NCBI RefSeq assembly: GCF_010731875.1 | Contig: NZ_AP022595.1 | Location: 2,542,001-2,606,000 of the forward strand | Length of the DNA: 64,000 bases | Source: Mycolicibacterium sarraceniae | GTDB lineage: Bacteria > Actinomycetota > Actinomycetes > Mycobacteriales > Mycobacteriaceae | Reading direction: 5' to 3' | Shown: in pieces, positions 12,478-32,119 of the stretch | Layout of the letters: every line of letters begins with the position of its first letter | Numbering within the stretch: position 1 is the first letter of the stretch | Translations under genes and position numbers: made by a program | Notes under the pieces: generated by a model | Seen by the model: the letters and a program-made list of their open reading frames with translations, nothing else | The model's database searches: none | What the model was told of the DNA's origin: nothing

Positions 12478-12690
12478 TCACATCGCCGCCGGGGGGGGAA
12501 ACGTTCCCGCCGGTATCCGCCCAGACACCGCCAAAACCCGGCCGAAGTGCGCGTCAGGCTGCAGGTTCGGCCCGAAACCGTAAGCAACCAAGGCGATTAC
12601 ACCAAGCCCTGCCCACAGGAGTCCGCGGTGTTCTCGGATTAGCTGCCACTCCAGCCAGGAGCCGCCGATCTCCAATAGCGCGGACACCAC
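12478..12690 (-). pseudogene. UPF0060 (YnfA-like) membrane protein, C-terminally truncated
   Basis: The frame reads [19 protein letters not shown], then [16 protein letters not shown] and [12 protein letters not shown], which is the first half of UPF0060 small multidrug-resistance-like membrane proteins. After GRVLA the sequence becomes unrelated and stops; the last two helices are missing. A GTG at 12690 is a possible start. Half-length compared with about 110 residues for the family. Confidence 0.6.
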
Positions 12691-12741
12691 GAAAACGCAG
12701 TCGATTTGAGCACCAGCATCCGATGGGTATGCCCGTCGCGC

Positions 12742-15874: not shown

Positions 15875-15921
15875 GACAATCCCTTCCGTCCACACTGACG
15901 ATCCGGCTAGTGTAAGCCGCC

Positions 15922-15935
15922 TAGAACCTGTTCTA
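15922..15935. promoter_or_regulatory. KstR-type operator
   Basis: TAGAACCTGTTCTA fits the published KstR motif TNNAACNNGTTNNA at every fixed position. It lies between the divergent ltp1-like and dehydrogenase genes, where it could repress both until a cholesterol-derived CoA thioester is present. Confidence 0.65.
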
Positions 15936-15956
15936 GTTTGCCACGGAGGTGCAGCA

Positions 15957-17100: not shown

Positions 17101-18273
17101 TTAGGAGCCGAGTAGTGTCGCCGGGCCGCGTTGCATCAGCTGACGGCCGATGATTATGCGCTGAATCTCGCTGGCGCCCTCCCAGATTCGCTCCACCCGT
17201 AGCTCGCGGAACATTCGCTCGGCGACGTTCTCGCGCATGTAGCCGCGGCCGCCGAAAACCTGCACCGCCCGGTCGGCCACTCGGCCGGCCATTTCCGAGC
17301 AGTACAACTTGGCCATCGATGCTTGCCCGTGCAGCGCCTTGCGATCCAGCCCGGCATCGATCCCGCGGGCCACCTCGTAGAGCATGCTTCGGGCGGCGAA
17401 CAGTTCGGTGGCGCTGTCGGCGAGCATGCCGGCCACCAGCTGGTGGTCGCCGAGCGCCTTCCCGTCGACGATGCGATCCCGTGCGAATGCGGTCATCTCG
17501 TCGACCAGCCGCTGGGCAGCACCGACGCAGCGGGAGGCCACCATGATCCGCTCGAAGCGGAACCAGTCCTGGGTGAAAGTCATTCCTTGGCCCTCGGCGC
17601 CGATCAGGTGGCTGACCGGGACCCGCACATCGGTGAACGAGACGATCGGGTGTTCATCGGGGATATTGTGCGAGTAATGCGGTGTTCGCACCACTTCGAC
17701 CCCGGGCCAGGGCAGATCCACCACCAGCAGGACGTGGTCACCCTCGTGTGGCCCGCCGACCAGCACCGCCTGGACGAAGACGTACTCGGCCAGGTTGAAC
17801 GAGGTGACGTGCCACTTGATCCCGTTGATGACGTAGTCATCGCCCTCGCGGACCGCGGTCGTTTCCAGCGCAGAAACGTCCGAGCCGGCGAATTCCTCGG
17901 TGATGGCGTACGCCTCGTGCTTCTCCCCGCGGACCGCGGGCAGCAGCCAGCGCTGCTTCTGGTACTCGGTAGCCACCCCGGCCCACCATTGCGGCGGGGT
18001 GTGCATCACCCACGCGATCGCATTGGTGACCCGGCCGACCTGTTCCTGCACCAAAACCTGTTGCAGTGCAGTAAATCCCGGGCCGCCCACCGAGCTGGGC
18101 ATATTGGTGGCGTACAGGCCCAGCTCAATGGCCTTCGCGTGGTGCTCGGCGGTCAGTTCCTTGGGTAGTTGGCCGCCGGCCAGCTCGGCCTCGGACTCGT
18201 AGGGGATCAGAGTCTCGACGAACTCGCGGGCGGTGTCACGGATCCGTCGGTCTTGCGTCGTCAACCCGTACAT
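17101..18273 (-). CDS. Acyl-CoA dehydrogenase
   Basis: A complete 390-residue flavin-dependent acyl-CoA dehydrogenase, oxidising an acyl-CoA to its enoyl-CoA. The flavin/substrate motif YAITEEFAGSDVSALETTA is near residue 123, the arginine-rich FAD segment RFERIMVAS near 243, and the C-terminal motif VFGGRGYMRE, then WEGASEIQRIIIGR, carries the usual glutamate. It is divergent from the DAO-type oxidoreductase gene over a 66-base gap that holds a palindromic operator also found at three other promoters in this region. That makes it part of the proposed TetR regulon. Substrate unknown. Confidence 0.9.
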   Translation of the reverse strand: MYGLTTQDRRIRDTAREFVETLIPYESEAELAGGQLPKELTAEHHAKAIELGLYATNMPSSVGGPGFTALQQVLVQEQVGRVTNAIAWVMHTPPQWWAGVATEYQKQRWLLPAVRGEKHEAYAITEEFAGSDVSALETTAVREGDDYVINGIKWHVTSFNLAEYVFVQAVLVGGPHEGDHVLLVVDLPWPGVEVVRTPHYSHNIPDEHPIVSFTDVRVPVSHLIGAEGQGMTFTQDWFRFERIMVASRCVGAAQRLVDEMTAFARDRIVDGKALGDHQLVAGMLADSATELFAARSMLYEVARGIDAGLDRKALHGQASMAKLYCSEMAGRVADRAVQVFGGRGYMRENVAERMFRELRVERIWEGASEIQRIIIGRQLMQRGPATLLGS

Positions 18274-18302
18274 TCGCGGTGCTCTCTGCTCGCTGGAAGC
18301 TA

Positions 18303-18322
18303 TTGACTGAGCGTTCAGTCTA
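18303..18322. promoter_or_regulatory. TetR-type operator, site 1
   Basis: TTGACTGAGCGTTCAGTCTA, with 6-base arms GACTGA and TCAGTC around four bases. It lies between the acyl-CoA dehydrogenase and the DAO oxidoreductase genes. A TAGCTT -10 element for the minus-strand gene (18297-18302) abuts it, so binding would block that promoter. Confidence 0.7.
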
Positions 18323-18339
18323 TGTCACGGTCTTGAGGT

Positions 18340-19536
18340 ATGACCAGTAGTCGCAGTGCGGACGTTGTGGTGGTCGGCGGTGGCACGGTCGGGGCGTGGA
18401 CGGCAGTCCAACTGGCCGAGCGTGGGGCTGGCCGCGTCGTGCTGCTCGAAGCCCAGACGCTGGGTGACGGCGCCAGCAGCCGTGCCGCCGGTATGGTCCG
18501 TGCGCAGGGCGGTACCGAGACCGCCATCCGACTGGGCTTGCGGAGCCAAGAGTTCTACATCGCTTCTGGTGAGCGCTATCCGCTGGATTGCGGTTTCGTC
18601 GCGCAGGGCTACCTGATGCCGTGCTTCTCCGACGTCGAGGTGCGACAGGCGCACGACCGGATCGCCCTGCAGCACTCGCTCGGGTTGACCGTGGAATGGT
18701 TGTCCAGCACCGATATCGACGGCCGCAACACCGGTTTGGCGCCAGGCATCACGGCTGGCGGCTCGTATGCTCCCGGCGACGGATACATTAACGCCCCGCG
18801 CAATGTGCTGGCCTACACTGCGGCGCTTACCGCACACGAAGTCGACGTCCGCGAACGCTGTGCGTTCACTGGCTTGCGGGTGGCCAAGGGGCGTGTCGTC
18901 GGCGTCGATACCGCCGCCGGACCCATCGACACCAACCGGGTGGTGCTGACCGGTGGCCCCTTGCTCGGCGAGGTCGGTGTGACGGCGGGCGGCCGGATTC
19001 CCGCCGGCGGCACCCGCCATCAGGTCGTGGTCACCGAACCACTACGCGGCGCCAACATCGACGAGCTGCCCATGGTTTTCGACGTCAGTGAAGGAATCTA
19101 TTGGCGACCAGGGGAATACGGTGGGGTGCTATGGGGGATGAGCAACCCCGACGAGCAGCCCGGCGAAGCTACCGAATTCGACTGGAGCTACTACCAGAAG
19201 GCGCTCGCCCGCATCGAGTCATTGTTGCCGGCGGTGCGCGGGCTGGGACTTCGGCGCACGTGGGCGGCCACGATCGACTACACGAACGACCACCTGCCGA
19301 TCCTGGGTCGGCTGCTGACCGAGGACGGCGCGATCGACGGCACCGTGGTTGCCTGCGCGGCCGGGCACGGCATGATGTGGGGTCCCGCGGTGGCCGAGGC
19401 CGCCGCCGACATCACTCTCACGGGCGGATGCGACTGGCTGGACCTCACCGACCTTGGACTGGACCGTTTCGACGCCGACGGGAACAGTCGCCTCGAGCCT
19501 GAACCGATTTCTCTCCCGTTCCCCGAACACGCCTGA
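18340..19536 (+). CDS. DAO-family FAD-dependent oxidoreductase
   Basis: A 398-residue amine/amino acid oxidoreductase of the DAO family (glycine, sarcosine and dimethylglycine oxidase/dehydrogenase type). The Rossmann FAD motif VVVGGGTVGAWTAVQLAERG lies near residues 8-27 and the flavin-contact segment GDGASSRAAGMVRAQGG follows. The C-terminal part has the typical RTWAATIDYTNDHLPILGR segment, then GHGMMWGPA. It would oxidise a C-N bond with FAD. The cupin gene follows immediately, and the operator upstream places it in the TetR regulon. Confidence 0.87.
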   Translation: MTSSRSADVVVVGGGTVGAWTAVQLAERGAGRVVLLEAQTLGDGASSRAAGMVRAQGGTETAIRLGLRSQEFYIASGERYPLDCGFVAQGYLMPCFSDVEVRQAHDRIALQHSLGLTVEWLSSTDIDGRNTGLAPGITAGGSYAPGDGYINAPRNVLAYTAALTAHEVDVRERCAFTGLRVAKGRVVGVDTAAGPIDTNRVVLTGGPLLGEVGVTAGGRIPAGGTRHQVVVTEPLRGANIDELPMVFDVSEGIYWRPGEYGGVLWGMSNPDEQPGEATEFDWSYYQKALARIESLLPAVRGLGLRRTWAATIDYTNDHLPILGRLLTEDGAIDGTVVACAAGHGMMWGPAVAEAAADITLTGGCDWLDLTDLGLDRFDADGNSRLEPEPISLPFPEHA

Positions 19537-19556
19537 CAATGAAGGGTTTACCTCCC

Positions 19557-19904
19557 ATGAACGCTGCAGTACTCACCACCGTGCTGGCCAATGCGGCCGA
19601 TGCCGAACTCGAAGACTGGGGTCCGTTGGAGGAAGCCACCGGTGACCCGATGGCGACCCACGGTCTGGAGGTCTGGGTCGACGGCGACAAGTCGGCGGGT
19701 ATCTGGCAGTGCGCCCCCGGGCCGTCGCACTGGACGCTCGAGGTCAACGAAGTGATCTACGTGGTGTCCGGGCGGATGACGGTCACTCCCGATGGCGGTG
19801 AGCCCAGTGAGGTCGGTGCAGGTGACCTCGCGGTCTTTCCGCTCGGCTGGACCGGGACGTGGGTGATCCACGAGATCCTGCGCAAGGCCTACGCCATTTT
19901 CTGA
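19557..19904 (+). CDS. Small cupin domain protein
   Basis: A 115-residue single-domain cupin of the DUF861 type (related to ureidoglycine aminohydrolase cupins), with the WTLEVNEVIYVVSGRMTVTP core followed by GAGDLAVFPLGWTGTW. It follows the DAO oxidoreductase by about 20 bases and is probably co-transcribed, so it may handle or sense the oxidation product. The start could also be the ATG at 19539; I prefer 19557 because AAGGG is at a normal distance. Metal-binding histidines are sparse, so catalysis is uncertain. Confidence 0.75.
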   Translation: MNAAVLTTVLANAADAELEDWGPLEEATGDPMATHGLEVWVDGDKSAGIWQCAPGPSHWTLEVNEVIYVVSGRMTVTPDGGEPSEVGAGDLAVFPLGWTGTWVIHEILRKAYAIF

Positions 19905-19914
19905 TCGTCGCCAG

Positions 19915-20746
19915 CGGACGGCAGCGGCGGACTTCGCGCAGCCGATCGCCGATGCCAGCCCGATTAGCGATGACCCGGCGCAGTGTCTGGCTCACACCCG
20001 CGACGGTGATCGGGTCTCCCGGGGTGTCGATGCGCGGCTGCGCGATTCCCAACGCAGCGCATTTGGCGGCAAGCGAGGGCTGGTACCAAAAAACGGACAC
20101 GAGATCATGGGGACCGTATGCACGATGGCTTGGTGGGTGGAGTTCATCCCCTGGTGAGTGATGAAGATGTCCGCTTCACGCGGGATGGCCTCCTGATCGA
20201 CGTCGTCAACGACGGTGACGTTCGGTGGTGTCGAACCGAGGCTGGTATCGCTACGGCCGAGACTCACGACCAACTCGGCTTCCGGGAGTGTGCTGAGTGA
20301 ATCGGCTATCGCTACGAGCGCGGCGATAGCGACACCGGAATAGTGACGCCAGATGATCGTCCCGAATGAGGCGCAGGTTTTGAGGGCGATATCGCTGAAA
20401 TACGGCTCGTGGCGCAGCGTTGTAGACCGTCCGGGGTGCGAGCCGAACAAGGCGACCGGTTCGAAGACGTTCCGCTCTTCGTCGGTCGGAAAAGCGCTCA
20501 GCTCGCAGTACAGATTCAGCCAGGGGCTCAACCCTGACGCGTACGAGAAAGGTGAAGCGTCGGCGACACCGTAGTCATTTCGGAGGATTTCGACCGCTCG
20601 CAGACAGCGCTCCGATGTTTGCACCCGGGGATCGTCGCGACGATGCGGCCGATGACTGAGAAGGTGTCTGCGACGATCACAGACGAAGTGCTGACGATGC
20701 CGTTCGACCAAGGGCTCTGCACGGTGCGGGCAATCAGCGCGCCCAC
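19915..20746 (-). pseudogene. Macrolide-type glycosyltransferase, multiply frameshifted
   Basis: Three minus-strand frames carry consecutive pieces of a GT1 (MGT-type) glycosyltransferase. The first, near 20746-20640, contains VIVADTFSVIGRIVA. The second, about 20630-20060, contains SFGTIIWRHYSGVAIAALVA and the donor-binding region THQGMNSTHQAIVHTVPM, then ISCPFF. The third, about 20090-19923, contains SLAAKCAALGIAQPRIDTPG. At least two frameshifts separate them and the C-terminal end is lost near the cupin gene. It interrupts the otherwise intact amine cluster on the opposite strand from the cupin. Confidence 0.65.
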
Positions 20747-20758
20747 TCCACCACCGCC

Positions 20759-22810
20759 CTAGCGCGGGATCACCAGCGCGTCGACAGCCAGCACCCCGGC
20801 CGCAGACGCGATGACGGGATTGGCCTCGATGGCGTCGAGATACTCACCGAGTTCGATTGCCAGCTGCGAGAATCCGACGACGGCGTCCGTCAATGCCGCC
20901 AGGTCGACCGGCTGTGCACCGCGCCAGCCGGCCAGCAGAGGTGCGGCGCGTAGCGAGCCCAGCAGCGCCACGGCTGCCTCCCGGCTGACCGGCGCACACG
21001 CGACCGTGCGATCGGCCAGCAGTTCCACCATCGTGCCCCCGGCGGCGACCACGATCAGCGGTCCGAAGTTGTCATCGCGTACCACGCCCAGCGAGATCTC
21101 CACGCCCGCAGGAGCCATCGCGTCGATGCTGACGTCGGGTCCGAGGCGGCCGGCCATCTCCTCGTAGGCCACCCACAGCGCCTCACGGTCGCTGATGTCG
21201 AGAACCACCCCGCCGACATCGCTCTTATGCTCGCTGCCTTGAGTTTTCAGTGCGACCGGATAACCGAGCGCTTCTGCCGCGGCCAGCGCCTCGGTGGCGT
21301 TATGGGCAGCGCGCGAGCGCGTCACCGAAATGCCGTAATCGGCCAACAACGCAAAGGCGGTGGGGGAGTCCCAGCCGGGCTCGCCCAGCTTGGCGGCCCA
21401 GCGTTGCGCACGGGCGGTGTCGATCTCAGGGATACCCGCCGGCACCGGTAGTGGCCAGCGCGCCAGATGCCCGAGTGCCGCGATCCCGCTACGGGTGCCT
21501 TCGAGTAGAGGAATTCCGTTGTTGCGGAGCCTCTTCGCCGTGGTCTTGTCGATCGCAGAAGGGACCGATGCCAGCACTGCGAGCGGCGCATCGGTGTCGG
21601 CCGCGATGTCCAGAATGGCATCGCTGTAGGCGGTGTCGCCGTCGAACTCGGTGACCAAGTCGACGGCAAGGGCGGTCACCGCCACCCCTGGATCATCGAC
21701 CAGCGCACGCAGGCAGCCGCCGAACAATTCGCGAGTGTCCGCGCCGGTACCCCACACGTCGAGCGGATTGCCGGCGGTCAGTCCCTCGTCGAGCAGTTCA
21801 CCGAGGGTGGCTAGGGTCGCGCGGGTCAGCTCCGCGAAGTCGACGGCGAGCTCGTGGGCGATATCGGCACACAAGGCGCGTTCGGCTCCGGAGTCGTGCG
21901 CAGTCGCGATTGCCCGCGAGCCCGGCCTGCGTCGTCGGCCCGCCTCGAAAAGCTCAATCGTGTCAACGAATTCGGCCATATCCGATACTCGGATGGCCCC
22001 GGTGTCGGCGCAGAATGCCCGCCAGCCGGCGGCGTCACCCGCCAGCGCACCGGAGTGCGCGGCGACCATAGCGCGCCCACGGGGGGAGTGCCCGACCGGC
22101 AGGATCACCACCGGGATGCCGCGCTCGGCGGCGAGGTGCAGTCCGGCTCGCAGGCGGCCCACCGAGCGCGGGGTCTCCAGCAGCAGCGCGATCAACGACG
22201 TGTCCGGGTCCTCGACGATGTAGTCCACGTAGTCGGCGGTATCGGTGACGAGCTCCTGACCCGAGGAAACCGCCAACCGGAAGCCGAACCCACGGCCGGC
22301 CCGCAGGATCGTGGAGAACGCCGACCCCGAGTGTGTCACGAGCGAAACCCCGCCCGGCGGTAGGGGATCGGGCTCGAGGTAGCCGAGCGCGCGCAGGCCG
22401 GTGGTGTTGTTGACAAATCCCATGCACCCCGCCCCGCACACCGCCATCCGGGCCCCGGCGGCGACCTCGGTGACGCCCTGGCGCAACGACGCGCCGTGCG
22501 CCGAACCGAAGATGACCGCGGACGGCGCCCCGATCGCGGCAGCGGCTTTCAGTTCGTCGAGCAGGGCCGCGTCGGGGACGCCGAGCAGCACCAGATCGAC
22601 CGGCTCGTCGAGCGCGGCCAGCGATGGCGCGCACACGATGCCGTCGATCCTGTCGTAGCGCGGGTTGACCAGATGCATGCGCCCCGAGCTTCGGCGCGCT
22701 TCGATCATCATCCGCTCGCCGAAGCTGCCCGGCCGTGGGCTGGCCCCGACGAGCGCCACCGAACGCGCCCCTAGCATGGCGGCCACGGCCGCACGGCGGC
22801 TGTCGGTCAT
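20759..22810 (-). CDS. ADP-forming (NDP-forming) acyl-CoA synthetase
   Basis: A 683-residue fusion of the alpha and beta parts of ADP-forming acid-CoA ligases, which convert an acid, CoA and ATP to acyl-CoA, ADP and phosphate. It begins with a CoA-binding domain (SVALVGASPRPGSFGERM). A succinyl-CoA ligase-like domain follows, with the phosphohistidine region VSLVTHSGSAFSTI. The C-terminal ATP-grasp domain carries YPVALKTQGSEHKSDVGGV near residue 510. There is no acetyltransferase domain, unlike Pat-type proteins. The ATG at 22810 overlaps the stop of the upstream oxidoreductase gene (ATGA), so both are expressed together. It could activate the acid made by the amine pathway. Confidence 0.87.
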   Translation of the reverse strand: MTDSRRAAVAAMLGARSVALVGASPRPGSFGERMMIEARRSSGRMHLVNPRYDRIDGIVCAPSLAALDEPVDLVLLGVPDAALLDELKAAAAIGAPSAVIFGSAHGASLRQGVTEVAAGARMAVCGAGCMGFVNNTTGLRALGYLEPDPLPPGGVSLVTHSGSAFSTILRAGRGFGFRLAVSSGQELVTDTADYVDYIVEDPDTSLIALLLETPRSVGRLRAGLHLAAERGIPVVILPVGHSPRGRAMVAAHSGALAGDAAGWRAFCADTGAIRVSDMAEFVDTIELFEAGRRRRPGSRAIATAHDSGAERALCADIAHELAVDFAELTRATLATLGELLDEGLTAGNPLDVWGTGADTRELFGGCLRALVDDPGVAVTALAVDLVTEFDGDTAYSDAILDIAADTDAPLAVLASVPSAIDKTTAKRLRNNGIPLLEGTRSGIAALGHLARWPLPVPAGIPEIDTARAQRWAAKLGEPGWDSPTAFALLADYGISVTRSRAAHNATEALAAAEALGYPVALKTQGSEHKSDVGGVVLDISDREALWVAYEEMAGRLGPDVSIDAMAPAGVEISLGVVRDDNFGPLIVVAAGGTMVELLADRTVACAPVSREAAVALLGSLRAAPLLAGWRGAQPVDLAALTDAVVGFSQLAIELGEYLDAIEANPVIASAAGVLAVDALVIPR

Positions 22811-24429
22811 CGCTTGCGGAAACGCTTCTTCTTGGTATCGGCCAGTGCGGCTTTGGCGGCCTGCCACCCGGGGATGCCACACACCCCGCCGCCGGCATGG
22901 GTGCCTGAGCTTCCGTTGTAGAGCCCGGCGATCGGCGTGCGGTAGTCGGCGTAACCCGGTGCGGGCCGCATGTGGAACAGCTGCTCCAGCGACAGTTCGC
23001 CGTGGAAGATGTTGCCGCCGATCAAGCCGTACTCCTGCTCCATCTCGTGCGGTCCGATGACGTCGCGATGCAGGATCGAGGACTTGAAGCCGGGGGCGAC
23101 CTGGTCGTAGAGATCGATCAGCCGGTCGGCATATGCATCGAGCTCCTCGGTGTGTGGAGCATCGGCCCATGCTGCGGGAACCCACTGGGTAAACAGCGAC
23201 ATGATATGCGTTCCATCGGGATTGAGTGTCTTGTCGAGGGTTGTGGGGATGACACCGTCGCTGAACGGCATCAAGGCGGGCTTGCCGACGCGGGCGTCCT
23301 GGAACGCGGCCTCGATGTACTCCATCGTCGGTGCCATCTCGACCGAGCCGGTGTGGTGTTCGGCCTGGCCGTCGCTGGGATCAGCGGTGAAGTTCGGTAG
23401 CTCTCCCAAGGCCAGGTTGATCTTCACCACACCGCTGCGGGTCTTGAAATGCTGGATGTCGGAGACGAACTCCGCGGGTAACTCGGTGCGCGGAATATGT
23501 TCCAGAAAAGCAATTTTCGGGTGCAGCGTGGTCACGACCAAGGGTGCGCGGATCTCATCGCCGTTGTCCAGGACCACGCCCTCGACCCGGCTGCCGCGCA
23601 CCAACATCCGCGACACCCGAGCCTTGGTGCGGATTTCGGCACCGAAGCTGCGTGCGGAGCGGGCGATGGCCTCCGACACCGCGCCCATGCCTCCCTCGGG
23701 GTAGCCCCAGCTGCCGAGCTGGCCGTCGCCAACGTCGCCGATGGAGTGGTGCGCCATCACGTAGGCGGTGCCTGGTTCGTACGGTCCGGCCCAGGTTCCG
23801 ATGACACCGTTGACCGCCAGCGCACCTTTGATTTGCGGTGATTCGAACCAGTCGTCGAGTAGGTCGGCGATGCTCATGGTGAGCAGCCGGGTGACGTCAC
23901 CCATCATCCGGGTGGTCATGCCGCGTTGGCTCCAGCCCAGCTTCGCGAGCTCGAACAAATCCGACGGCTTGTGCGAACCGATGTTGGGCGGCACCTGGGT
24001 CAGCAGGGGGCCCATGACATCGGCGATACCCTCCAGCCAGGCGTTCCACTTGGGCCAGGTTTCGGCGTCCTTCTTCGAGAATTTGGCCAGTTGCTCGTGG
24101 GTGCGTGCCGGGTCGTCCTCGTAGATGGTGAGCGAGCCACCCTCGGGAAATGCCTGGTAGTAGGGGCCCATCGGGTGCACCTTGTAGCCGTGGCGCTCCA
24201 GGCTCAAATCGTTGACGATGGTCGGCGGCATCAGGCTCATCACGTACGACAACCGGGTCACCCGGAGGTGGGGTGCGTCCTCCCACGGCGCCTCAGTGGT
24301 GGCGGCGCCGCCCAATGCGCTCCGAGACTCCAGGACGACGGTATTGGCGCCCGAGCGTGCCAGATAGGCGGCCGAGACCAGTCCGTTGTGACCGCCGCCG
24401 ATGACGATGGCGTCGTAGGTGTTCGACAT
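22807..24429 (-). CDS. Phytoene dehydrogenase-like FAD oxidoreductase
   Basis: A 540-residue flavoprotein of the phytoene desaturase/PYROXD2-like group. The dinucleotide-binding motif AIVIGGGHNGLVSAAYLARS is near residues 8-27, with a second conserved region GYPEGGMGAVSEAIARSARS near 243. The C-terminal motif GLYNGSSGTHAGGGVCGIPG fits the family. Substrates in this family range from carotenoids to amines and are not predictable here. It is the first gene of a two-gene unit with the acyl-CoA ligase and is divergent from the TetR gene; operator site 2 sits in the gap. Confidence 0.85.
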   Translation of the reverse strand: MSNTYDAIVIGGGHNGLVSAAYLARSGANTVVLESRSALGGAATTEAPWEDAPHLRVTRLSYVMSLMPPTIVNDLSLERHGYKVHPMGPYYQAFPEGGSLTIYEDDPARTHEQLAKFSKKDAETWPKWNAWLEGIADVMGPLLTQVPPNIGSHKPSDLFELAKLGWSQRGMTTRMMGDVTRLLTMSIADLLDDWFESPQIKGALAVNGVIGTWAGPYEPGTAYVMAHHSIGDVGDGQLGSWGYPEGGMGAVSEAIARSARSFGAEIRTKARVSRMLVRGSRVEGVVLDNGDEIRAPLVVTTLHPKIAFLEHIPRTELPAEFVSDIQHFKTRSGVVKINLALGELPNFTADPSDGQAEHHTGSVEMAPTMEYIEAAFQDARVGKPALMPFSDGVIPTTLDKTLNPDGTHIMSLFTQWVPAAWADAPHTEELDAYADRLIDLYDQVAPGFKSSILHRDVIGPHEMEQEYGLIGGNIFHGELSLEQLFHMRPAPGYADYRTPIAGLYNGSSGTHAGGGVCGIPGWQAAKAALADTKKKRFRKR

Positions 24430-24464
24430 GGCGCTCTACTTTCGTCAGCCCGGAACGGGCAGCT

Positions 24465-24484
24465 TTGACTGACTGTTCAATCTA
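24465..24484. promoter_or_regulatory. TetR-type operator, site 2
   Basis: TTGACTGACTGTTCAATCTA lies between the divergent FAD oxidoreductase and TetR genes. It aligns without gaps to sites 1 and 3 and implies autoregulation. A TAGGCT -10 candidate for the TetR gene is just downstream, near 24493. Confidence 0.65.
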
Positions 24485-24545
24485 ACCAAGTGTTAGGCTT
24501 AGAACAAGTGCCAGCGCAGGCGCGATCTAAGGGGAGTACGACGAG

Positions 24546-25199
24546 ATGGCAGAACCCGCACCCGCGACCGAGAACAACGAAGCGCGGCGCATCCAGATGT
24601 TGCGCGCCGCAGCGGAGCTCATATGCGAACGTGGCTTTTCCGAGACGCGAATCTCTGATGTCGCCAAACGGGCCGGGGTCAGCTCGGCGTTGGTCATCTA
24701 CTACTTCGGCACCCGCGATCGGCTGCTCGTCGATGCGTTGCGCTATTCCGAGGAATCGTTCTACGAGGCGGCCGAACAGATGCTCGCCGAGGTGTCCTCA
24801 TTGCGTGACCGGCTCTCGCTGTTGATCCAGTGGACCTGCGTCCCGGAGGGCAAGAACGAGATCCCCGGCGCGTGGGGGCTGTGGTTCGACCTCTGGGCGC
24901 AAGCCTTCCGGCACGACGAGGTCAAGACGGGCCGGGTGGAACTCGATGCGCGCTGGCGCCGGATGATCGTGGATGCGGTGCAATCGGCCGAGCTGGAGTC
25001 CGAGGTCGACGCGAAGATGTTCGCTCTGGAGTTCTCGGCGCTGTTGGACGGGTTGTCGATCCAGGTTGCGCTGGAAGATCCGGATGTCGACTCGACCGTG
25101 GCTTACGACATCGCGATGCGCTTCGCCGAACGTGAGCTGGAAATGCCGCGGGAGAAGCGGCGTCCGGTGGCGGCCGGTCGCGGCCGGCGGTCGCGCTAA
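24546..25199 (+). CDS. TetR family regulator of the amine cluster
   Basis: A 217-residue TetR protein. The DNA-binding part (MLRAAAELICERGFSETRIS, then DVAKRAGVSSALVIYYFGTR) spans about residues 18-65. The C-terminal part, with the WDLWAQAF-like region (LWFDLWAQAFRHDEV), resembles BetI-type effector domains. AAGGGGAG precedes the ATG. It is the only TetR gene within the cluster that shares the TGACTGNNYRTTCA operator, one copy of which lies in its own promoter, so it is the likely regulator of the four operator-bearing promoters. It ends four bases into the convergent ABC ATPase gene. The ligand is inferred to be a pathway amine or CoA ester. Confidence 0.87.
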   Translation: MAEPAPATENNEARRIQMLRAAAELICERGFSETRISDVAKRAGVSSALVIYYFGTRDRLLVDALRYSEESFYEAAEQMLAEVSSLRDRLSLLIQWTCVPEGKNEIPGAWGLWFDLWAQAFRHDEVKTGRVELDARWRRMIVDAVQSAELESEVDAKMFALEFSALLDGLSIQVALEDPDVDSTVAYDIAMRFAERELEMPREKRRPVAAGRGRRSR

Positions 25200-26338
25200 A
25201 CCGGGCTGGCGACCAGATCAGCCGCCGGATCCTTGATAACGGCCGCGGTACTTCGGGCCAGCACCCGCACCGCGTCATCGGTGCACACGCAGGTGACCGA
25301 CATCCCCGTGTCGTAGGCCACGGAGCCAGGCCCGGAGCGGTTGGGGACATCGACGACCAGGGCGGCGGGTTCACCGACGTTGACATGAACCTGCGTCGAC
25401 GCCCCGTGATAGACGACCTGGGCCACCGTCCCGGTGATCGCGTTGTGCCCGGGCGACACCGGGTCGTCAGGGGACTGCAGAGTGATGCGTTCCGGCCGGA
25501 TGACGATGGCGGCCGGGCCGGGCTGACACGAGGCGTCCACCGTGGCGCCGAGTCTGGTCGCCAGTGCCGAGCACAGCGCCGACCCGCCGTCGTTCTCCAG
25601 GACATCGGCATCGAAAATGTTTGCCGCACCGAGGAATCCAGCCACGTAGGTGGTGGCTGGCGCGGAGTAGATCTCCTGCGGGGGTCCCACCTGTTCGACC
25701 CGTCCCTCGGCCAAGACGGCGATCTGGTCACTCATTGTGAGCGCCTCGTCCTGGTCGTGGGTCACGTACACGAACGTGATCTCGACCTCGCGCTGTACGG
25801 CGCGCAGTTCGAGCTGAAGTTGCTTGCGCAGCTTGGCATCGAGTGCTCCGAGCGGCTCATCGAGCAGCAGCACGCTGGGTTGTAGCACCAGCGCCCGGGC
25901 CAGTGCGACACGCTGTTGCTGGCCGCCGGAGAGCTGGGTGGGCTTGCGTTTGGCGTACCCGCTCATCCGGACCAGTTCGAGCGCTTCGCCGACGCGGCGC
26001 TTGGTCTCGTCCTTGGGGGTTTTCTTGTAGCGCAGACCGAACGCGACGTTGTCCCACACCGTCATGAATGGAAACAGCGCGTACGTCTGGAACACGGTAT
26101 TGACCGGCCGCTTGTGCGGTGGATCCTGCGCGACGTCACGGCCGTCGAGTTCGATGCGGCCGGAGTCGGGTTTCTCGAAACCGGCGATCATCCGCAGTGT
26201 GGTGGTCTTACCGCAGCCGGATGCGCCGAGAAGTGAGTAGAACTGTCCTGCCGGGATATCCAGGTCGATACCCGTCACGGCGGGTACTCCGTCGAACGAC
26301 TTCGCCAGCTGGTGCAGCCGGATGGCGCCGCCGGTCAC
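25196..26338 (-). CDS. Pot/spermidine-type ABC transporter ATPase
   Basis: A 380-residue ATPase of the PotA/spermidine-putrescine importer class. Walker [10 protein letters not shown], the Q-loop [14 protein letters not shown], signature LSGGQQQR, Walker B VLLLDEP and the switch VTHDQDEA are all present, followed by a TOBE regulatory domain after about residue 250. I chose GTG 26338 as the start because the frame upstream overlaps the aminotransferase gene, whose stop is 25 bases away. It should energise the binding protein and two permeases encoded on the other strand from 27.9 kb. Confidence 0.88.
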
Positions 26339-26363
26339 CGGCGGCCGTCCCCGCAACAGGCGG

Positions 26364-27740
26364 TCAGGCCGCCACCGCCGAAGCGAGCCGGGCGAAGTTC
26401 GCGGCGAACCGGTCGACATCGGCCTCGTCGTGCTGAACAGATAGCAACCATTGCTCCACCTTGCCCCACGGCGGCAGGAATACACCGCCATTGTGCTGCA
26501 TGAGCCAGTGCAAGTGGCCCAACCGATCGTCGATCTGGAGGAAATCGCGGAAATCGTGCACCGGCTCGCGTGTGAACGTCACACAACCCTTGGCGCCCAC
26601 GCTCACCACGTGCCAACCGTAACCGTGCTCGGCCGTCGTCGCTTCCAAAGCGCCGCGCAGCCGCTCTGCCAGGGATGCCATGCGTGCGTACGCAGCGGGG
26701 GTCAGCACCTCGGCCAGGGTGGCCCGGGTAGCCGCCATCGCCAGCGGATTGCCGTTGAAGGTGCCGACCTGTTCGTAACGGCCGTCGGCGATCGCCGACA
26801 TCACGGTGGTGCTGCCCCCGATCGCCGCCACCGCGATCCCGCCCCCCAAAGCCTTTGCCAGACAGATGATATCGGGGACAACACCCGACATTGCGGTGAC
26901 ACCGCCGGGTCCGGTGGTGAAGCCGGTCTTGACTTCGTCGTAGATCAGCAGTGCACCCTCGGCGTGCAGCAGCTCGCGGATCGCGGCCAGGTAGCCGACG
27001 TCAGGGGGAATGATGCCGGCGTTCATCATCACCGGCTCGACGATCATTGCCGCCACCTCGCCACGGTGCTCGGCCAGTGCCCGGGCAACCGCGTCGGGAT
27101 CGTTGAATCCCACGACGACCACCAGATCGCGGATCGCCGCCGGGATACCGCTGTTACCCGGCACCCCGGTCGGATGATCGCGCGGGCCGACCTGGTCTGC
27201 CTCGGGGAGCACCGAGACCTCCACCGAGTCGTGATGGCCATGGTAGCAACCCTCGACCTTGATGATGAGATCTCGCCCGGTCACCGACCGGGCGAGGTGC
27301 ACGGCGTCCATGGTGGCCTCGGTGCCGGAATTGGCAAAGCGCCACAACGGCAAATCGAACCTGCGGGCCAGTTCGCCGGCGATCCAGATCGCGTCCTCGG
27401 TGGGTTGTGCGAAGTGCGTGCCGCGGCGAACCTGCCTGCTGACCGCCTCGACGATCGCGGGGTGGGCATGTCCGGCGATGGACGCGCCGTAGCCGCCGTG
27501 CATATCGACGTACTCGGTGCCGTCGACGTCGTAGACCTTGGAACCCGCGCCGTGGCTCATCCAGACCGCCTGCGGCTGGGCGATCTGCCAGTTGGACGTG
27601 GCACCGCCCGCAAGGTGTTCGCTTGCGCGGCCGATCATTTCGGTGCTGCGCGGCTGGCGGGCCAGAAACACCTTTTCCTGATCGGCGATCAATTGGTCGA
27701 CCGCGTCGTGAACCGGGCTCTCGATAATCGGCGAAGCCAC
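26364..27740 (-). CDS. Class III PLP aminotransferase (GSA aminomutase-like)
   Basis: A 458-residue class III aminotransferase similar to glutamate-1-semialdehyde aminomutase and related omega-aminotransferases. GCYHGHHDSVEVSV carries the cofactor-stacking aromatic and EPVMMN and LIYDEVKTGF the phosphate and pyridine contacts. The PLP lysine is in ICLAKALGGGI. I place the start at GTG 27740, preceded by GGAAGG; an ATG at 27794 lies only four bases from the operator. With the ATPase downstream it forms an operon. It could transaminate an amine or amino acid delivered by the transporter. Substrate unknown. Confidence 0.87.
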   Translation of the reverse strand: MASPIIESPVHDAVDQLIADQEKVFLARQPRSTEMIGRASEHLAGGATSNWQIAQPQAVWMSHGAGSKVYDVDGTEYVDMHGGYGASIAGHAHPAIVEAVSRQVRRGTHFAQPTEDAIWIAGELARRFDLPLWRFANSGTEATMDAVHLARSVTGRDLIIKVEGCYHGHHDSVEVSVLPEADQVGPRDHPTGVPGNSGIPAAIRDLVVVVGFNDPDAVARALAEHRGEVAAMIVEPVMMNAGIIPPDVGYLAAIRELLHAEGALLIYDEVKTGFTTGPGGVTAMSGVVPDIICLAKALGGGIAVAAIGGSTTVMSAIADGRYEQVGTFNGNPLAMAATRATLAEVLTPAAYARMASLAERLRGALEATTAEHGYGWHVVSVGAKGCVTFTREPVHDFRDFLQIDDRLGHLHWLMQHNGGVFLPPWGKVEQWLLSVQHDEADVDRFAANFARLASAVAA

Positions 27741-27797
27741 GGGGAAACCTTCCGCTCGAATGCTGTGCGGACCTGCGAAGAAGCGCCGCTGCATCTA

Positions 27798-27817
27798 TTG
27801 ACTGAGCATTCAGTCTA
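27798..27817. promoter_or_regulatory. TetR-type operator, site 3
   Basis: TTGACTGAGCATTCAGTCTA differs from site 1 at a single base. It lies between the divergent aminotransferase and transporter binding-protein genes and would control both. Confidence 0.7.
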
Positions 27818-27874
27818 TGCCAGAGTCCAAGGAACAAACAAGACTCGAGAAGACTCGAAACCACGGAGGCGCGG

Positions 27875-29119
27875 ATGCCAGCACCGACAGGACCCGGCCC
27901 GAATCGTCGTCAATTCCTGCAGCGGGCCGCCTTACTGGCCGCTGGAACCCCCGCGCTCGTGGCCTTTCTCGATGCGTGTTCCAAAGGCGGACAATCGACT
28001 TCGGCCCCGACCCTGAAGATCGCGTCACCGAAGAACCCGGTGACATGGGACATCGCTGGCGATAACAAGCCGATCGCCGACGGGCTGGCCCCGGAAAAGG
28101 GTGCCACGCTACAGCTCTACAGCTATGCCGACTACATCGCGCCCGGCGCGATCAAGTCGTTCGAGGAGAAGTACTCGACCAAGGTGGCCGTCTCGACCTT
28201 CAACGACACCGACGAGGCCATCACCAAGATCCGCGGCGGCAACGTCGACTACGACATCTACTTCCCGAGCTACGACCAGATCAGCCGGCTGGTCAACGGC
28301 GGACTGGTCCGCCCGATCAACCACAGCTATGTCCCCAACATCAAGAATGTCTGGCCGTTCTTCTCCAACCCCTGGTATGACCAGGAGTGGCGGTTCACGG
28401 TGCCCTACACCGTCTACACGACCGGCATCGGCTGGCGTGCCGACCAGGTGCCGGCGGATATCGGTGCGCTGAAGAATCCCTATGAGGCACTGTGGGATCC
28501 GACCTATAAGAACAAGACCGCCGTCATCGATGACTGGCACACCGCGATGGCCATGGTGCTGCTGAAACTGGGCATCACCGATGTCAACACATCATCGGCA
28601 GACGATCTCAAGAAGCTCGGCGACCAGCTGACCGAGCTCGTGAAGGCAACCTCGCCGAAGGTCACCGTCACGATGTACAGCGATCTGCCCGCGGGTCAGA
28701 TCGGCCTGTCGCAGATGTGGTCTGGTGACATCATCAACGCCGTCAACTACCTGCCGGAGGGAACCGGACCGGAGATCCTGCGCTATTGGTTCCCCTCCGA
28801 CGGCAAGGGATTGGTCGACAACGACCTGATCGTGCAGCTTCGTGGCGGCAAGAATCCGGTGCTGGCGAACCTGTTCCTCAACCATATGCTCGACCCGGAG
28901 GTCGCCAAGCAGAACCTCCAGCAGATCGGCTACCAGCCGCCACAGGTGTCACTCAATCCGGACACGCTGATCGCTGATGGGCTGGTCCCGGAGAACCTGA
29001 AGAGCGCGATCGTGCGCCCGGAGTACTTCGACGCCGGTTACCGGCTGCTGGAGCTGGATACCGCCAATGACGCTGCCTGGCACAATGTCTGGCGCGCCTT
29101 CAAGGCCGGAGGTAACTGA
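27875..29119 (+). CDS. Spermidine/putrescine-type ABC transporter binding lipoprotein
   Basis: A 414-residue extracellular solute-binding protein of the PotD class. The N-terminus has a twin-arginine motif (NRRQFLQR) and hydrophobic segment ending in LDACSKGG, so it is probably Tat-exported and lipid-anchored at that cysteine. The mature part contains the GATLQLYSYADYIAPGAIKS start and the DYDIYFPSYDQISRLV segment typical of the family. ACGGAGG precedes the ATG. It leads an operon with two permease genes and the Rieske gene, under operator site 3. The ligand is inferred to be an amine. Confidence 0.9.
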   Translation: MPAPTGPGPNRRQFLQRAALLAAGTPALVAFLDACSKGGQSTSAPTLKIASPKNPVTWDIAGDNKPIADGLAPEKGATLQLYSYADYIAPGAIKSFEEKYSTKVAVSTFNDTDEAITKIRGGNVDYDIYFPSYDQISRLVNGGLVRPINHSYVPNIKNVWPFFSNPWYDQEWRFTVPYTVYTTGIGWRADQVPADIGALKNPYEALWDPTYKNKTAVIDDWHTAMAMVLLKLGITDVNTSSADDLKKLGDQLTELVKATSPKVTVTMYSDLPAGQIGLSQMWSGDIINAVNYLPEGTGPEILRYWFPSDGKGLVDNDLIVQLRGGKNPVLANLFLNHMLDPEVAKQNLQQIGYQPPQVSLNPDTLIADGLVPENLKSAIVRPEYFDAGYRLLELDTANDAAWHNVWRAFKAGGN

Positions 29120-29166
29120 CCCTGGCGCCGCGGTCGCGCAACACCGGCCTGTGGCCCCTGCTCGCC

Positions 29167-30021
29167 ATGCCCGGGGTCGTCTGGCTGACGTTGTTCTTCC
29201 TGGCTCCGCTCTATGTGGTGCTGGCCATCGTCTTCGGCCAGGTCGACCCGATCTTCCGCACTCCGATCCCGGTATGGAATCCGTTGGAGTGGGACCCTTC
29301 TCAGTTCACCTACGTCCTGACCCACATCGTCGGCGAGAACGGGGTGTTCGGGCCGGCGCTGGTGCGTACCGCGGTCTACGTCGCACTGGCAAGCGTGCTG
29401 TGCCTGCTGATCTCCTTCCCGGTGGCTTATTACACGGCGAGGCTGGCCGGACGGTGGGCCGGGGTGCTGCTCGCCGCGCTTATCGCACCGTTCTGGATCA
29501 GCTACATGATGCGAATGCTGGCTTGGGTCAACCTCCTTCAGGACGACGGCATGGTCAATGGGTTTCTGCGTCTCGGTGGTCTGTTCGACGCGAACGTGCA
29601 CTGGCTGACCGGCCAGCCGGTGGTGGTGGTGCTGGGGTTGGTGTACGGCTATGCGCCGTACATGATTCTGCCCTTGTATGCCGGTCTTGACCGGTTGCCG
29701 CAGTCGACACTGGAGGCCGCCCGTGATTTGGGGGCCAACCGGCTGGCGTCGTTCTGGCGGGTGACGCTGCCGATGTGTCGGCCCACGATCGTGGCCGGTG
29801 TCCTGCTGACGTGCCTGCCGATGCTCGGCGACTACTTCACCTCCGACATGTTGTCGGCCTCACCGAAGACGGCGATGGTGGGCAACCTGATCAACGACAG
29901 CGTGCAGGCGCCCGGACAGACCGGGCAGGCCGGCGCGTTCGTGATGCTGGTCCTGCTCGTCACCGTGCTGCCGATGTTCTACTACGTGCGGGTGACTGCG
30001 CGCGACGAGGTGTCCACATGA
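29167..30021 (+). CDS. PotB-type ABC transporter permease
   Basis: A 284-residue inner-membrane permease with about six transmembrane helices and the EAA loop TLEAARDLGANRLASFWRVT near residue 180. The first ATG is inside the first helix, so the true protein probably starts earlier: in frame there is a CTG at 29122 with GGAGG nine bases upstream and the sequence LAPRSRNTGLWPLLAMPG, which supplies the normal cytoplasmic N-terminus. A stop at 29113 bars any earlier start. Its TGA stop overlaps the ATG of a mini-ORF that leads into the second permease gene. Confidence 0.87.
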   Translation: MPGVVWLTLFFLAPLYVVLAIVFGQVDPIFRTPIPVWNPLEWDPSQFTYVLTHIVGENGVFGPALVRTAVYVALASVLCLLISFPVAYYTARLAGRWAGVLLAALIAPFWISYMMRMLAWVNLLQDDGMVNGFLRLGGLFDANVHWLTGQPVVVVLGLVYGYAPYMILPLYAGLDRLPQSTLEAARDLGANRLASFWRVTLPMCRPTIVAGVLLTCLPMLGDYFTSDMLSASPKTAMVGNLINDSVQAPGQTGQAGAFVMLVLLVTVLPMFYYVRVTARDEVST

Positions 30022-30086
30022 GCGATGCTTGCGGAGCGAATCATGGGCGGACATGGCGCGACCGAGCCTGCGAGGGGGCGGCATGA
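30018..30086 (+). repeat. MIRU-like coupled mini-ORF between permease genes
   Basis: A 22-codon frame (MSDACGANHGRTWRDRACEG, then AA) begins with an ATGA overlapping the stop of the first permease and ends with an ATGA overlapping the start of the second. This is the layout described for mycobacterial interspersed repetitive units, which sit between coupled genes in operons. The sequence (AGCGATGCTTGCGGAGCGAA) is repetitive in style but occurs only once in this window. Confidence 0.5.
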
Positions 30087-30961
30087 GAGGGCCGATCTCG
30101 TGGTGGAAAGACCCATGGCGGCCGCCGCGGATTCTGATGGCCGTCACCGCCGGTTATCTGGTGTGGTCGCTGTTGCCGGTAATGATCGCGGTGATGTTCT
30201 CCTTCAACGACGGCAGGTCGCGGACCAGTTGGCAGGGCTTCTCGTTTCGCTGGTACTGGGGTGATGCGACCAAATCGGTGTGGCATGACGCCTCGCTGCA
30301 CACCGCGCTGCTACAGACCCTGAAGCTCGGCGTGATCACCACGCTGATCACCGTGCCGCTGGGTGTGCTGTTCGCGATCGGTGTCGACCGCTGGCGGGGG
30401 CGGCTGCCCGCCGGCGCCAACCTGCTGATGCTGGTGTCGTTCGTGGTCCCCGAGGTACTGCTGGCCGTCGCATTGCTGTTTGTGATGACCTCGCTAGCAC
30501 TGCCGATCGGGCTCGGCACTTCCGCGCAAGTGATCGGCCTGGTCACCTTCCAGATCGCCTATCCGGCTGTGCTCGTACGCGCCCGGCTGGCCACGATCGG
30601 CAACCAATATGAAGAAGCAGCAATGGATTTGGGCGCTTCGCCGATGGAGGCGCTACGACGCGTGACGGTACCGATGCTGTTCCCGGCGATCTTCGCCAGC
30701 ACCGTGCTGGTATTCGCGGACGTCATCGACGACTTCGTGCTGGTGCGTTACCTTTCGGGGAACTCCTCGACCGAACCGGTCTCGGTGAAGATCTACAACA
30801 CCGCCCGAGCCGCGCCGAGCCCGGCTCTCAACGCGCTGGCCACCCTGTTGCTGCTGGCGGCGTTGGTCGCGGTGACCATCGGATATCTGGTGTACCGCCG
30901 GATGACTCGCGGCGACAATTCAACGCGCGGTGGCATTGCCGCCTTCGCGGGCGAGGCATAG
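30083..30961 (+). CDS. PotC-type ABC transporter permease
   Basis: A 292-residue second permease of the amine-type importer, with about six transmembrane helices and the EAA loop YEEAAMDLGASPMEALRRVT near residue 190. The start at ATG 30083 gives a normal N-terminus (MRGPISWWKDPWRPP) and is preceded by GAGGGGGCGGC; the frame open from 30029 runs through the MIRU-like insert. With PotB-type, PotD-type and ATPase genes nearby, all parts of a complete importer are encoded. The Rieske gene follows by nine bases. Confidence 0.88.
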   Translation: MRGPISWWKDPWRPPRILMAVTAGYLVWSLLPVMIAVMFSFNDGRSRTSWQGFSFRWYWGDATKSVWHDASLHTALLQTLKLGVITTLITVPLGVLFAIGVDRWRGRLPAGANLLMLVSFVVPEVLLAVALLFVMTSLALPIGLGTSAQVIGLVTFQIAYPAVLVRARLATIGNQYEEAAMDLGASPMEALRRVTVPMLFPAIFASTVLVFADVIDDFVLVRYLSGNSSTEPVSVKIYNTARAAPSPALNALATLLLLAALVAVTIGYLVYRRMTRGDNSTRGGIAAFAGEA

Positions 30962-30964
30962 TCT
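30959..30964 (+). promoter_or_regulatory. Leaderless-type -10 element of Rieske gene
   Basis: TAGTCT followed by six bases and the ATG at 30971. It indicates a promoter specific to the Rieske gene inside the transporter operon. Confidence 0.4.
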
Positions 30965-30979
30965 GACTGTATGTTCAAA
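30963..30979. promoter_or_regulatory. TetR-type operator, site 4
   Basis: The core TGACTGTATGTTCA (30964-30977) aligns to the other three operator cores, and a wider GTCTG/CAGAC inverted repeat (30961-30984) frames it. It spans the start codon of the Rieske gene. Less symmetrical than sites 1 and 3. Confidence 0.5.
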
Positions 30980-32119
30980 CAGACTCCCGCGCCGGTGCCT
31001 GCCGGAGATCTCGCGGCCTCGCTCGCGCCGTTCGGGCAGTCCCGAATGCTGCCCCGGGCGGCCTACGTCGACGCCGAGGTGTTCGAGTGGGAGAAGCTCC
31101 ACATCTTCTCTGGCTGGCACTGTGTGGGTCAGGCGAGCGATCTGGACGGTGTCGGCGCCCAAAAGGCCGTCGGCTCCGGTGCCAACGGAATCCTGCTGGT
31201 GCGCGGGGAGGACCATCAGGTGCGCGCCTTCGCCAACGTGTGCCGCCACCGCGGACACGAAATGCTGGCATGCGGTGCCACCGCCAAGCGGCGCGGCATC
31301 GTCTGCCCCTACCACTCGTGGTCTTACAAGCTCGACGGCGAACTACGCAAAGCGCCCGGCTTCGACGCCGCCAAGGACTTCGATTCCAGCCAATTCGGCC
31401 TGGCCGAGCTGCGATTGGTGAACTGGCACGGCTACCTGTTCGTCGACCCCAGCGGTGCCGACATCGATTTCGACGAGCACGTCGCGGGGATGGAAGACGT
31501 CATCGGCCCGTACCGTCCGGAAGATTTGACCGTGGTGGCGCGGCACTCCTACGAGCTCGCGACCAACTGGAAGGTCATTGTTGAAAACTATCAGGAGTGC
31601 TACCACTGCTCGACGATCCACCCCGAGTTGTCCAAGATCAGCCCACCGACGAGCGGGGAGAACCTCGACCTGCCCGGCGACTGGATCGGCGGCTGGATGA
31701 GCATGATCGACGAGGCCGAGACCATGTCGCTGAGCGGGCGCAGCGGCGGCGTGGCGATCAAAGGCCTATCCGAACAAGAACTTCGCAGCGTGATGTATCT
31801 GGTGGGATTCCCCAACCTGTTGGTCAGCCTGCATCCCGATTACGTGATGACGCACCTGATGACGCCATTGGCCGTCGACCGCACCCACGTCGAGTGCGCC
31901 TGGGCGTTCCCGAAAGAGGCCCTGGACAAGCCTGATTTCGATCCCTCCTATGCGGTGGACTTCTGGGATCTGACCAACCGGCAGGACTGGACGGCTTGCG
32001 AATCGGTACAGCGGGGGCTGAGCTCCCCGCACGCCCGCCCGGGACCGCTGGCGCCCGACGAGGACGGCGTCTACCAGTTCGTCACCCGGGTTGCCCGGGC
32101 CTACAGCGGGTCCCGCTGA
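30971..32119 (+). CDS. Rieske non-heme iron oxygenase, alpha subunit type
   Basis: A 382-residue aromatic-ring-hydroxylating-type oxygenase. The Rieske [2Fe-2S] ligands are in CRHRGHE and CPYHSWSY (residues about 91-118). The C-terminal catalytic domain has ENYQECYHCSTIHPEL, giving the mononuclear iron histidines and the bridging acidic residue region. Family members include carnitine (CntA), glycine betaine (GbcA) and stachydrine N-demethylating oxygenases as well as ring hydroxylases. Next to an amine importer and a DAO oxidoreductase, an N-dealkylating role is my inference. No reductase gene is adjacent, so electrons must come from elsewhere. Confidence 0.88.
   Translation: MFKQTPAPVPAGDLAASLAPFGQSRMLPRAAYVDAEVFEWEKLHIFSGWHCVGQASDLDGVGAQKAVGSGANGILLVRGEDHQVRAFANVCRHRGHEMLACGATAKRRGIVCPYHSWSYKLDGELRKAPGFDAAKDFDSSQFGLAELRLVNWHGYLFVDPSGADIDFDEHVAGMEDVIGPYRPEDLTVVARHSYELATNWKVIVENYQECYHCSTIHPELSKISPPTSGENLDLPGDWIGGWMSMIDEAETMSLSGRSGGVAIKGLSEQELRSVMYLVGFPNLLVSLHPDYVMTHLMTPLAVDRTHVECAWAFPKEALDKPDFDPSYAVDFWDLTNRQDWTACESVQRGLSSPHARPGPLAPDEDGVYQFVTRVARAYSGSR

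Follow-up and report, generated by a model that had tools for sequence, protein, structure and literature searches.

Among the described systems closest to the one considered here, BetI is the choline-responsive TetR repressor of the bet genes, and KstR and KstR2 represent local TetR regulons of mycobacterial catabolism; a TetR that controls a divergent catabolic cluster by way of palindromes is a well-known design. We analysed a 64,000-nucleotide (nt) stretch of the Mycolicibacterium sarraceniae genome (contig NZ_AP022595.1, positions 2,542,001 to 2,606,000; hereafter the window, numbered from its first base), in which a cluster of twelve genes in four blocks occupies positions 17101-32119. 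It includes a tetR gene (24546-25199, + strand), whose product, a BetI-type TetR regulator of 217 amino acids, is the predicted repressor at four operators. An initial annotation, made from the sequence alone, had proposed a TetR-controlled regulon for amine degradation and import. We put at roughly 0.87 the probability that this TetR represses its own gene and its eleven neighbours via GACTGANNNNTCAGTC, the repression ending once a cationic amine or one of its breakdown products enters the cell. The regulon, its operator and its pathway appear to be new: among the papers listed by a search of titles and abstract openings, with most subscription journals and bioRxiv outside its coverage, none described the cluster or the operator.

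A pattern search of the window with the core TGACTGNNYRTTCA gave matches at 18304-18317, 24466-24479, 27799-27812 and 30964-30977, four where 0.02 would be expected by chance, and none of 100 shuffles reached four. In the whole 4.83-Mb genome the pattern matched four times, always in the cluster, and its reversed control not at all. All four sites were found where the initial annotation had placed them, sites 1 and 3 do differ by a single base over 20, and the genome-wide scan it had suggested came out in its favour. Each site holds one version of a 16-base-pair (bp) palindrome, GACTGANNNNTCAGTC, and the sites stand at the starts of all four blocks. Operator 1, GACTGAGCGTTCAGTC (18305-18320), has exact arms and separates the divergent genes of block 1, for an acyl-CoA dehydrogenase (-) on one side and a DAO oxidase and a cupin (+) on the other. 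Operator 2, GACTGACTGTTCAATC (24467-24482), with one arm mismatch, lies in block 2 between the genes of a PYROXD2-like oxidoreductase and an ADP-forming CoA ligase (-) and tetR (+). The arms of operator 3, GACTGAGCATTCAGTC (27800-27815), are again exact; in block 3 it parts the class III aminotransferase and PotA genes (-) from those of the binding protein, PotB and PotC (+). Operator 4, GACTGTATGTTCAAAC (30965-30980), is the weakest and belongs to block 4, the Rieske oxygenase gene (+). The initial annotation is refined at site 4, which does not just precede the Rieske gene: it contains the start codon (ATG at 30971). A chance origin of the four sites is ruled out by the window shuffles, the genome-wide uniqueness and the counts in relatives given below. 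The looser palindrome GACTGANNNNTCANTC matches exactly in the genome at sites 1 to 3 only; with up to one mismatch it gave 24 matches (sites 1 to 3 included) versus 22 for the control, and therefore no further targets can be named.

Related loci were collected by scanning one genome per species via the TetR, which found 96 relatives, of which 80 loci were kept. The mycobacterial group (L073-L126 and L128) is defined by a TetR identity of at least 77%, some of its records being labelled otherwise; L115, a contig of a 'Bifidobacterium breve' metagenome-assembled genome, encodes the mycobacterial cluster, and its bin is therefore probably contaminated. In these 55 loci, which span 1.01 Mb, every one of the 182 matches falls between -250 and +12 relative to a cluster-gene start. 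Counted gene by gene (tblastn matches beginning no more than 60 residues from the query start, at least 35% identity, 250 bp of upstream sequence), first genes carry sites in 54/54 cases for tetR, 55/55 for PYROXD2, 52/52 for the binding protein, 44/46 for Rieske, 30/31 for the acyl-CoA dehydrogenase and 29/29 for DAO. The aminotransferase figure, 29/52, is lower because start codons are uncertain, and the same site 3 is counted for the binding protein in 52/52. For operon-internal genes the counts are 0/52 (PotA), 0/50 (PotB), 0/48 (PotC), 0/53 (CoA ligase) and 1/31 (cupin), the sole cupin site being in L090, where no DAO gene was matched.

The remaining 25 loci, from Nocardioidaceae, Streptosporangiaceae, Acidimicrobiales-type and other actinobacteria, encode a TetR 46-64% identical to that of the window and often have other gene orders. 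Here 62 of 65 matches lie at cluster-gene starts, tetR has a site in 24/25 loci, and the PotA (4/18) and CoA ligase (11/21) genes carry sites where they have become first genes. Three matches, outside the start filter, were left unassigned: in L134 at 155 (by DAO) and at 7314 (by the aminotransferase and binding-protein genes), and in L146 at 1330 (by the aminotransferase gene). Many of the distant sites have exact 6-bp palindromic arms. The outer arm GTC, which is outside the search pattern, follows 56/65 distant sites, 83/182 mycobacterial sites and 0/20 off-cluster matches (one per genome; G009 supplied one, genomes lacking the TetR the other 19); the other mycobacterial outer arms are ATC and AAC, with the last C kept in 182/182. 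Ten whole genomes were reached via the loci, at least two of them (G255, G260) duplicating the records G009 and G035. They hold 42 matches, 35 at the cluster and 7 elsewhere (control: 6); four of the 35 fall a little beyond the fetched loci, on the contig of tetR and no more than about 13 kb from it.

Another way to view the sites is to ask how far they come and go with the regulator. In a same-genus sample of 60 genomes, with the TetR searched at E <= 1e-40 and the TGACTGNNYRTTCA pattern counted in each, 14 genomes with an intact TetR hold 61 matches (mean 4.4). The 45 genomes without it hold 29 (mean 0.64), which is control level only (47 reversed-control matches in all 60). One genome, G004, has a broken TetR and no site match; no other cluster gene was found in the 20 kb surrounding the broken tetR, nor an aminotransferase match at E <= 1e-150 anywhere in that genome. 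Two loci look like decaying systems: L068 of G004 (9937-10586), with tetR broken, and L064 of G054 (9279-10596), where tetR is intact and a scar next to it directly joins remnants of the acyl-CoA dehydrogenase and PYROXD2-like genes.

The reverse test, free of conditioning on the TetR, covered 296 genomes of the class, with the aminotransferase searched at E <= 1e-150 and the TetR at E <= 1e-35. It gave 11 aminotransferase and 10 TetR matches (the broken one of G004 included), with 7 genomes holding both; all 7 have strict sites, which in the fetched loci stand before cluster genes. The aminotransferases of G267, G333, G511 and G302, which lack a close TetR, are more divergent (54-57% identity), and for the first three genomes the available sequence (9.6, 6.3 and 20 kb) contains no strict site. 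Three genomes have the TetR without that aminotransferase: G004, where it is broken, and G268 and G456, each with a site before tetR.

The TetR itself scores above cut-off for PF00440 (TetR_N helix-turn-helix, 46.5 bits) and PF13977 (BetI-type, TetR_C_6, 63.7 bits). Identity with BetI as a named equivalog is ruled out by scores under both cut-offs (91.0 bits versus 201.3 for TIGR03384, 85.0 versus 118 for NF001978), and so is identity with KstR (19 bits versus a cut-off of 280). The region ALVIYYF, which we take to be the recognition helix, is invariant in ten aligned sequences down to 49% identity, in keeping with a constant operator. The next-best TetR in the genome matches at E 1e-10, with 28% identity over residues 8-183, and the remaining ones align only in part (e.g. 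41% over residues 6-68). Palindromic operators are found at the regulator's own promoter and at those of its predicted targets and are conserved along with it, G302 (below) being the exception. The initial annotation had assigned the operators to this TetR tentatively; that assignment now has strong comparative backing, from the genome-wide uniqueness, the co-occurrence in the 60-genome sample, the co-loss in two genomes, the conserved site positions in other families and the want of a close TetR paralogue. Since the motif stands at all block starts, occurs nowhere else in the genome and is kept in distant actinobacteria, a single cluster-encoded repressor likely switches the whole set, and on this comparison the cluster is predicted to be a conserved local TetR regulon.

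The operators also coincide with candidate promoters, whose conservation we assessed by column counts over the mycobacterial relatives; bases outside the operator proved conserved as well. At operators 1 to 3, one half forms the predicted leftward -10 and the other overlaps the predicted rightward -35, TTGACT. Leftward, the right arm in reverse reads TAGACT or TAGATT, a TANNNT -10. Rightward, TTGACT is followed after 17 nt by nANNGT, in which A, G and T are kept in at least 49 of 52-55 relatives at sites 2 and 3 and in 29/29 at site 1; the first T of TTGACT is conserved at site 1 in 29/29, at site 2 in 23/55 and at site 3 in 47/52. The form nANNGT fits the ANNNT -10 rule of M. smegmatis promoters (PMC6448022). 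At site 1, positions -1 to +20 comprise 22 bases, 20 of them identical in 29/29 relatives and the other two in 28.

At site 4 the predicted -10 of the Rieske gene is TAGTCT (30959-30964, +), of TANNNT form, which overlaps the TAG stop of the PotC-like gene. In the TANNCT of the relatives, T, A and C are each kept in 42/44 and the last T in 44. This element ends 7 nt before the A of the Rieske ATG, and a leaderless mRNA is therefore predicted; the Rieske mRNA is probably leaderless, and operator 4 would run from its -10 into its first codons. Codons 1-4 are nearly frozen in 42 relatives (ATG 40, TTC 41, AAA 40, CAG 39), while codons 5-8 vary, and codon 3 reads AAA in 40/42 Rieske genes, whereas further along the gene AAA makes up 56 of 301 Lys codons. 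A bound repressor would cover core elements of seven predicted promoters; because the operators overlap these elements, bound TetR would block RNA polymerase.

The same coincidence with plausible -35 and -10 elements at fixed spacing would be seen if the motif were a promoter element for a particular sigma factor (TTGACT -35, TAGACT -10), its likeness among sites reflecting recognition by RNA polymerase only. We regard this as very improbable, as the dyad symmetry reaches beyond the searched core, many distant sites keep exact arms, in other families the distance from site centre to gene start varies between about 1 and more than 200 nt, and site presence mostly tracks the TetR; moreover, unlike a general sigma-factor element, the motif is found nowhere else in the genome. 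We give just as little credence to the idea that another TetR-family protein, encoded elsewhere, binds the four sites while the local TetR has other targets. Action in trans is possible for regulators of this family, and G302 has one site beside a 34%-identical BetI-type TetR that reads GGLIHYHF in the helix where the cluster TetR has ALVIYYF. However, the other TetR matches of the genome are distant, operator 2 stands before the local tetR throughout the mycobacterial loci and in all but one of the others, and the clusters of G267, G333 and G511, which lack this TetR, show no site in the 6-20 kb retrieved, though they are more divergent.

The G302 site is one of several observations that weigh against the TetR regulon as we propose it. 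Operator 4 has three mismatches to the palindrome, G054 has kept the TetR and operator 2 after loss of the surrounding cluster, and the looser genome matches at control level may leave room for weak distant targets. As regards sampling, the 80 loci were found through the TetR, so that their counts are conditional on it, they share some records with the 60-genome sample (e.g. L076 and G053), and close relatives are not independent of one another, the more independent evidence coming from the 25 distant loci. As regards the pathway, no Rieske reductase was seen in the cluster, and genes of the SBP_bac_5 type in several clusters mean that the ligand need not be a polyamine.

Family searches bear out the genes named in the initial annotation. 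In block 1, the acyl-CoA dehydrogenase (17101-18273, -) has acryloyl-CoA reductase AcrC as its nearest NCBIfam model, far under the cut-off, and is followed by the DAO-family FAD oxidoreductase, which is sarcosine/glycine-oxidase-like (18340-19536, +), and a EutQ-like cupin (Cupin_3; 19539-19904, +). In block 2, the phytoene-dehydrogenase/PYROXD2-like FAD oxidoreductase (22807-24429, -) accompanies the ADP-forming acyl-CoA ligase (20759-22810, -), whose best solved relative is 7cm9, the dimethylsulfoniopropionate (DMSP) lyase DddX. Ligase residues H252, W353 and E388 correspond to H292 (phospho-histidine), W391 (cation-pi) and E432 (base) of DddX and are conserved in 49/49, the pairs having been made by hand on an alignment in which E432 adjoins a gap; the fourth DddX residue, the aromatic F435, is replaced by G391. 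Such counts come from length-selected sets of 48 CoA ligases, 50 Rieske proteins and 54 binding proteins, plus those of the window.

Block 3 encodes the aminotransferase, which is glutamate-1-semialdehyde-aminomutase-like (26364-27794, -), and a complete set of transporter components: a PotA-like ABC transporter ATPase (25196-26338, -, start uncertain), a PotD/PotF-type solute-binding protein (27875-29119, +), a PotB-like permease (29122-30021, +, start uncertain, with the first ATG/GTG/TTG at 29167) and a PotC-like permease (30083-30961, +). PotA scores 386.5 bits versus 355.6 for TIGR01187 and 389.9 versus 482 for NF006987. The binding protein shows, by eye, an N-terminal twin arginine and a lipobox-like cysteine (R11, R12 and C35 are invariant in 20 aligned sequences), and both its sequence relationship and its predicted fold place it with PotD/PotF. 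Measured against the PotF ligand residues W37, D39, E185, W244, D247 and D278, as listed in PMC8666671, a by-eye pairing suggests that D86, W282, D285 and D317 are kept, that Y84 takes the place of W37 and that E185 is not retained. The Rieske oxygenase (30971-32119, +), GbcA/CntA-like with the motif ENYQECYHC, has 3vca and 4qup (titled monooxygenase/demethylase, and presumably Stc2), 3n0q and CntA 6y8j at the head of its PDB matches; identity with the GbcA equivalog, a glycine betaine monooxygenase, is ruled out (204 bits versus 670, NF058607). Its E209, C210 and C213 are invariant in 51/51 and form the Glu-Cys-x-x-Cys motif of group V, which in CntA is E205/C206/C209, with the bridging Glu by the mononuclear iron and the Cys pair present in some group V members (PMC10952381).

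Genes that vary between species offer a further view of the pathway; for part of this comparison the relatives' genes were called by a simple GC-based script. Between PotC and Rieske, M. agri has an aldehyde dehydrogenase gene (L091:16443-17828; NF010000, 609 bits versus a cut-off of 615), M. barrassiae an Aldedh-family relative (L120:16352-17737), and two other loci molybdenum-hydroxylase-type genes (L088:16780-20093 and L128:17053-20192, with Pfam run on L128); these are possibly alternative enzymes for one step. L145 encodes a transaminase with GABA-transaminase likeness, under the cut-offs. An SBP_bac_5-type gene lies between tetR and the aminotransferase gene in L149, L151 and L152 (at about 10600-12700; Pfam annotation for L149 only), which may mean that the transporter was exchanged while the regulon was conserved, and L172 encodes an SBP_bac_5-type protein beside PotABCD. 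Such neighbours hint at an amino-aldehyde-like intermediate and name no compound.

Other neighbours touch the cluster as a stretch of DNA. Between cupin and CoA ligase the window has a UDPGT-like fragment (19992-20711, -), an insertion or a remnant; this gap is at most 42 bp in 26 of 40 measured relatives and holds a 5.6-kb insert in nine (L081, L119, L121, L122 and others, at about 2600-6300), loci of this kind encoding a ROK protein, a xylose-isomerase-like TIM barrel and a sugar-type binding protein. Upstream of the cluster (14675-17015) lie a thiolase/SCP2-like gene and a 2,4-diaminopentanoate-dehydrogenase-like gene, which adjoin the cluster in several relatives without a motif match of their own. 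Just downstream, two patatin-like phospholipase genes converge (33135-33986, + and 33967-34965, -).

Taken together, we propose that the TetR, on versions of GACTGANNNNTCAGTC at the four block starts, would repress its own gene and the eleven others until entry of a cationic amine, or its breakdown product, releases it. The PotABCD-type transporter would import the cation; the Rieske oxygenase and the DAO oxidase would remove N-alkyl groups or oxidise C-N bonds, the aminotransferase would deaminate, the ADP-forming CoA ligase would activate the resulting acid and the acyl-CoA dehydrogenase would process the product, an order of steps that we infer from the enzyme families. These families point to a cationic amine, perhaps N-methylated, that would be taken up and oxidised; of the earlier proposal of amine degradation and import, the import and oxidation families fit, and the amine substrate itself stays a prediction. 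Carnitine, choline, stachydrine, homarine and DMSP each seem to fit some of the enzymes, and none seems to fit all. That the TetR regulates the cluster for some other cationic or zwitterionic compound, such as a betaine, a sulfonium like DMSP or an opine-like molecule, is on balance unlikely, though a reading to be taken seriously: the nearest solved relative of the CoA ligase is DddX, with the H292, W391 and E432 equivalents invariant, and SBP_bac_5 binding proteins occur in some distant clusters. A more specific version of the amine regulon is doubtful and offered as speculation: an undescribed actinobacterial catabolon for N-methylated or quaternary polyamine-like cations, in which a Rieske demethylase of group V, a DAO oxidase and an aminotransferase would act together with an importer of the PotABCD type, the DddX-like ATP-dependent CoA ligase would also eliminate the amine of a beta-amino acyl-CoA and leave a CoA ester of the acryloyl type, and the BetI-like TetR would switch everything as one unit, its operator doubling as the leaderless Rieske start codon.

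The significance of the regulatory prediction is its sharpness: one TetR, one 16-bp palindrome, four operators and twelve genes. Relatives of the locus occur in Mycobacteriaceae, Nocardioidaceae, Streptosporangiaceae and Acidimicrobiales. If the prediction is true, the inducer of the TetR would reveal what class of substrate feeds an amine pathway that is widespread and apparently uncharacterised, the TetR/operator pair could act as a sensor for that inducer, and the conserved operator over the start codon would clearly exemplify how a regulatory sequence can constrain the codons of a leaderless gene.

Set against known systems, the transporter has all four components of PotABCD/PotFGHI by family, and the binding protein also by predicted fold; it differs in that the W37 equivalent is apparently Tyr and E185 is seemingly not retained; another ligand is likely. 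The Rieske oxygenase has PDB matches and the Glu-Cys-x-x-Cys motif in common with the group V enzymes CntA, GbcA and Stc2, but falls under the GbcA cut-off and has no reductase seen beside it. The CoA ligase belongs to the same ADP-forming family as DddX, an ATP-dependent DMSP lyase, and has three of four key residues in common with it; it differs in the Gly at F435 and in its setting beside a Pot-type transporter, and lyase activity is putative. Like KstR and KstR2, the regulator is a TetR predicted to act on palindromes at the promoters of a catabolic gene set, but the genes are others and its similarity to KstR is weak. With BetI it shares the TetR_C_6/BetI-type C-terminal domain and a divergent, apparently autoregulated cluster for catabolism and transport, whereas its scores lie under the BetI cut-offs and its target genes are different.

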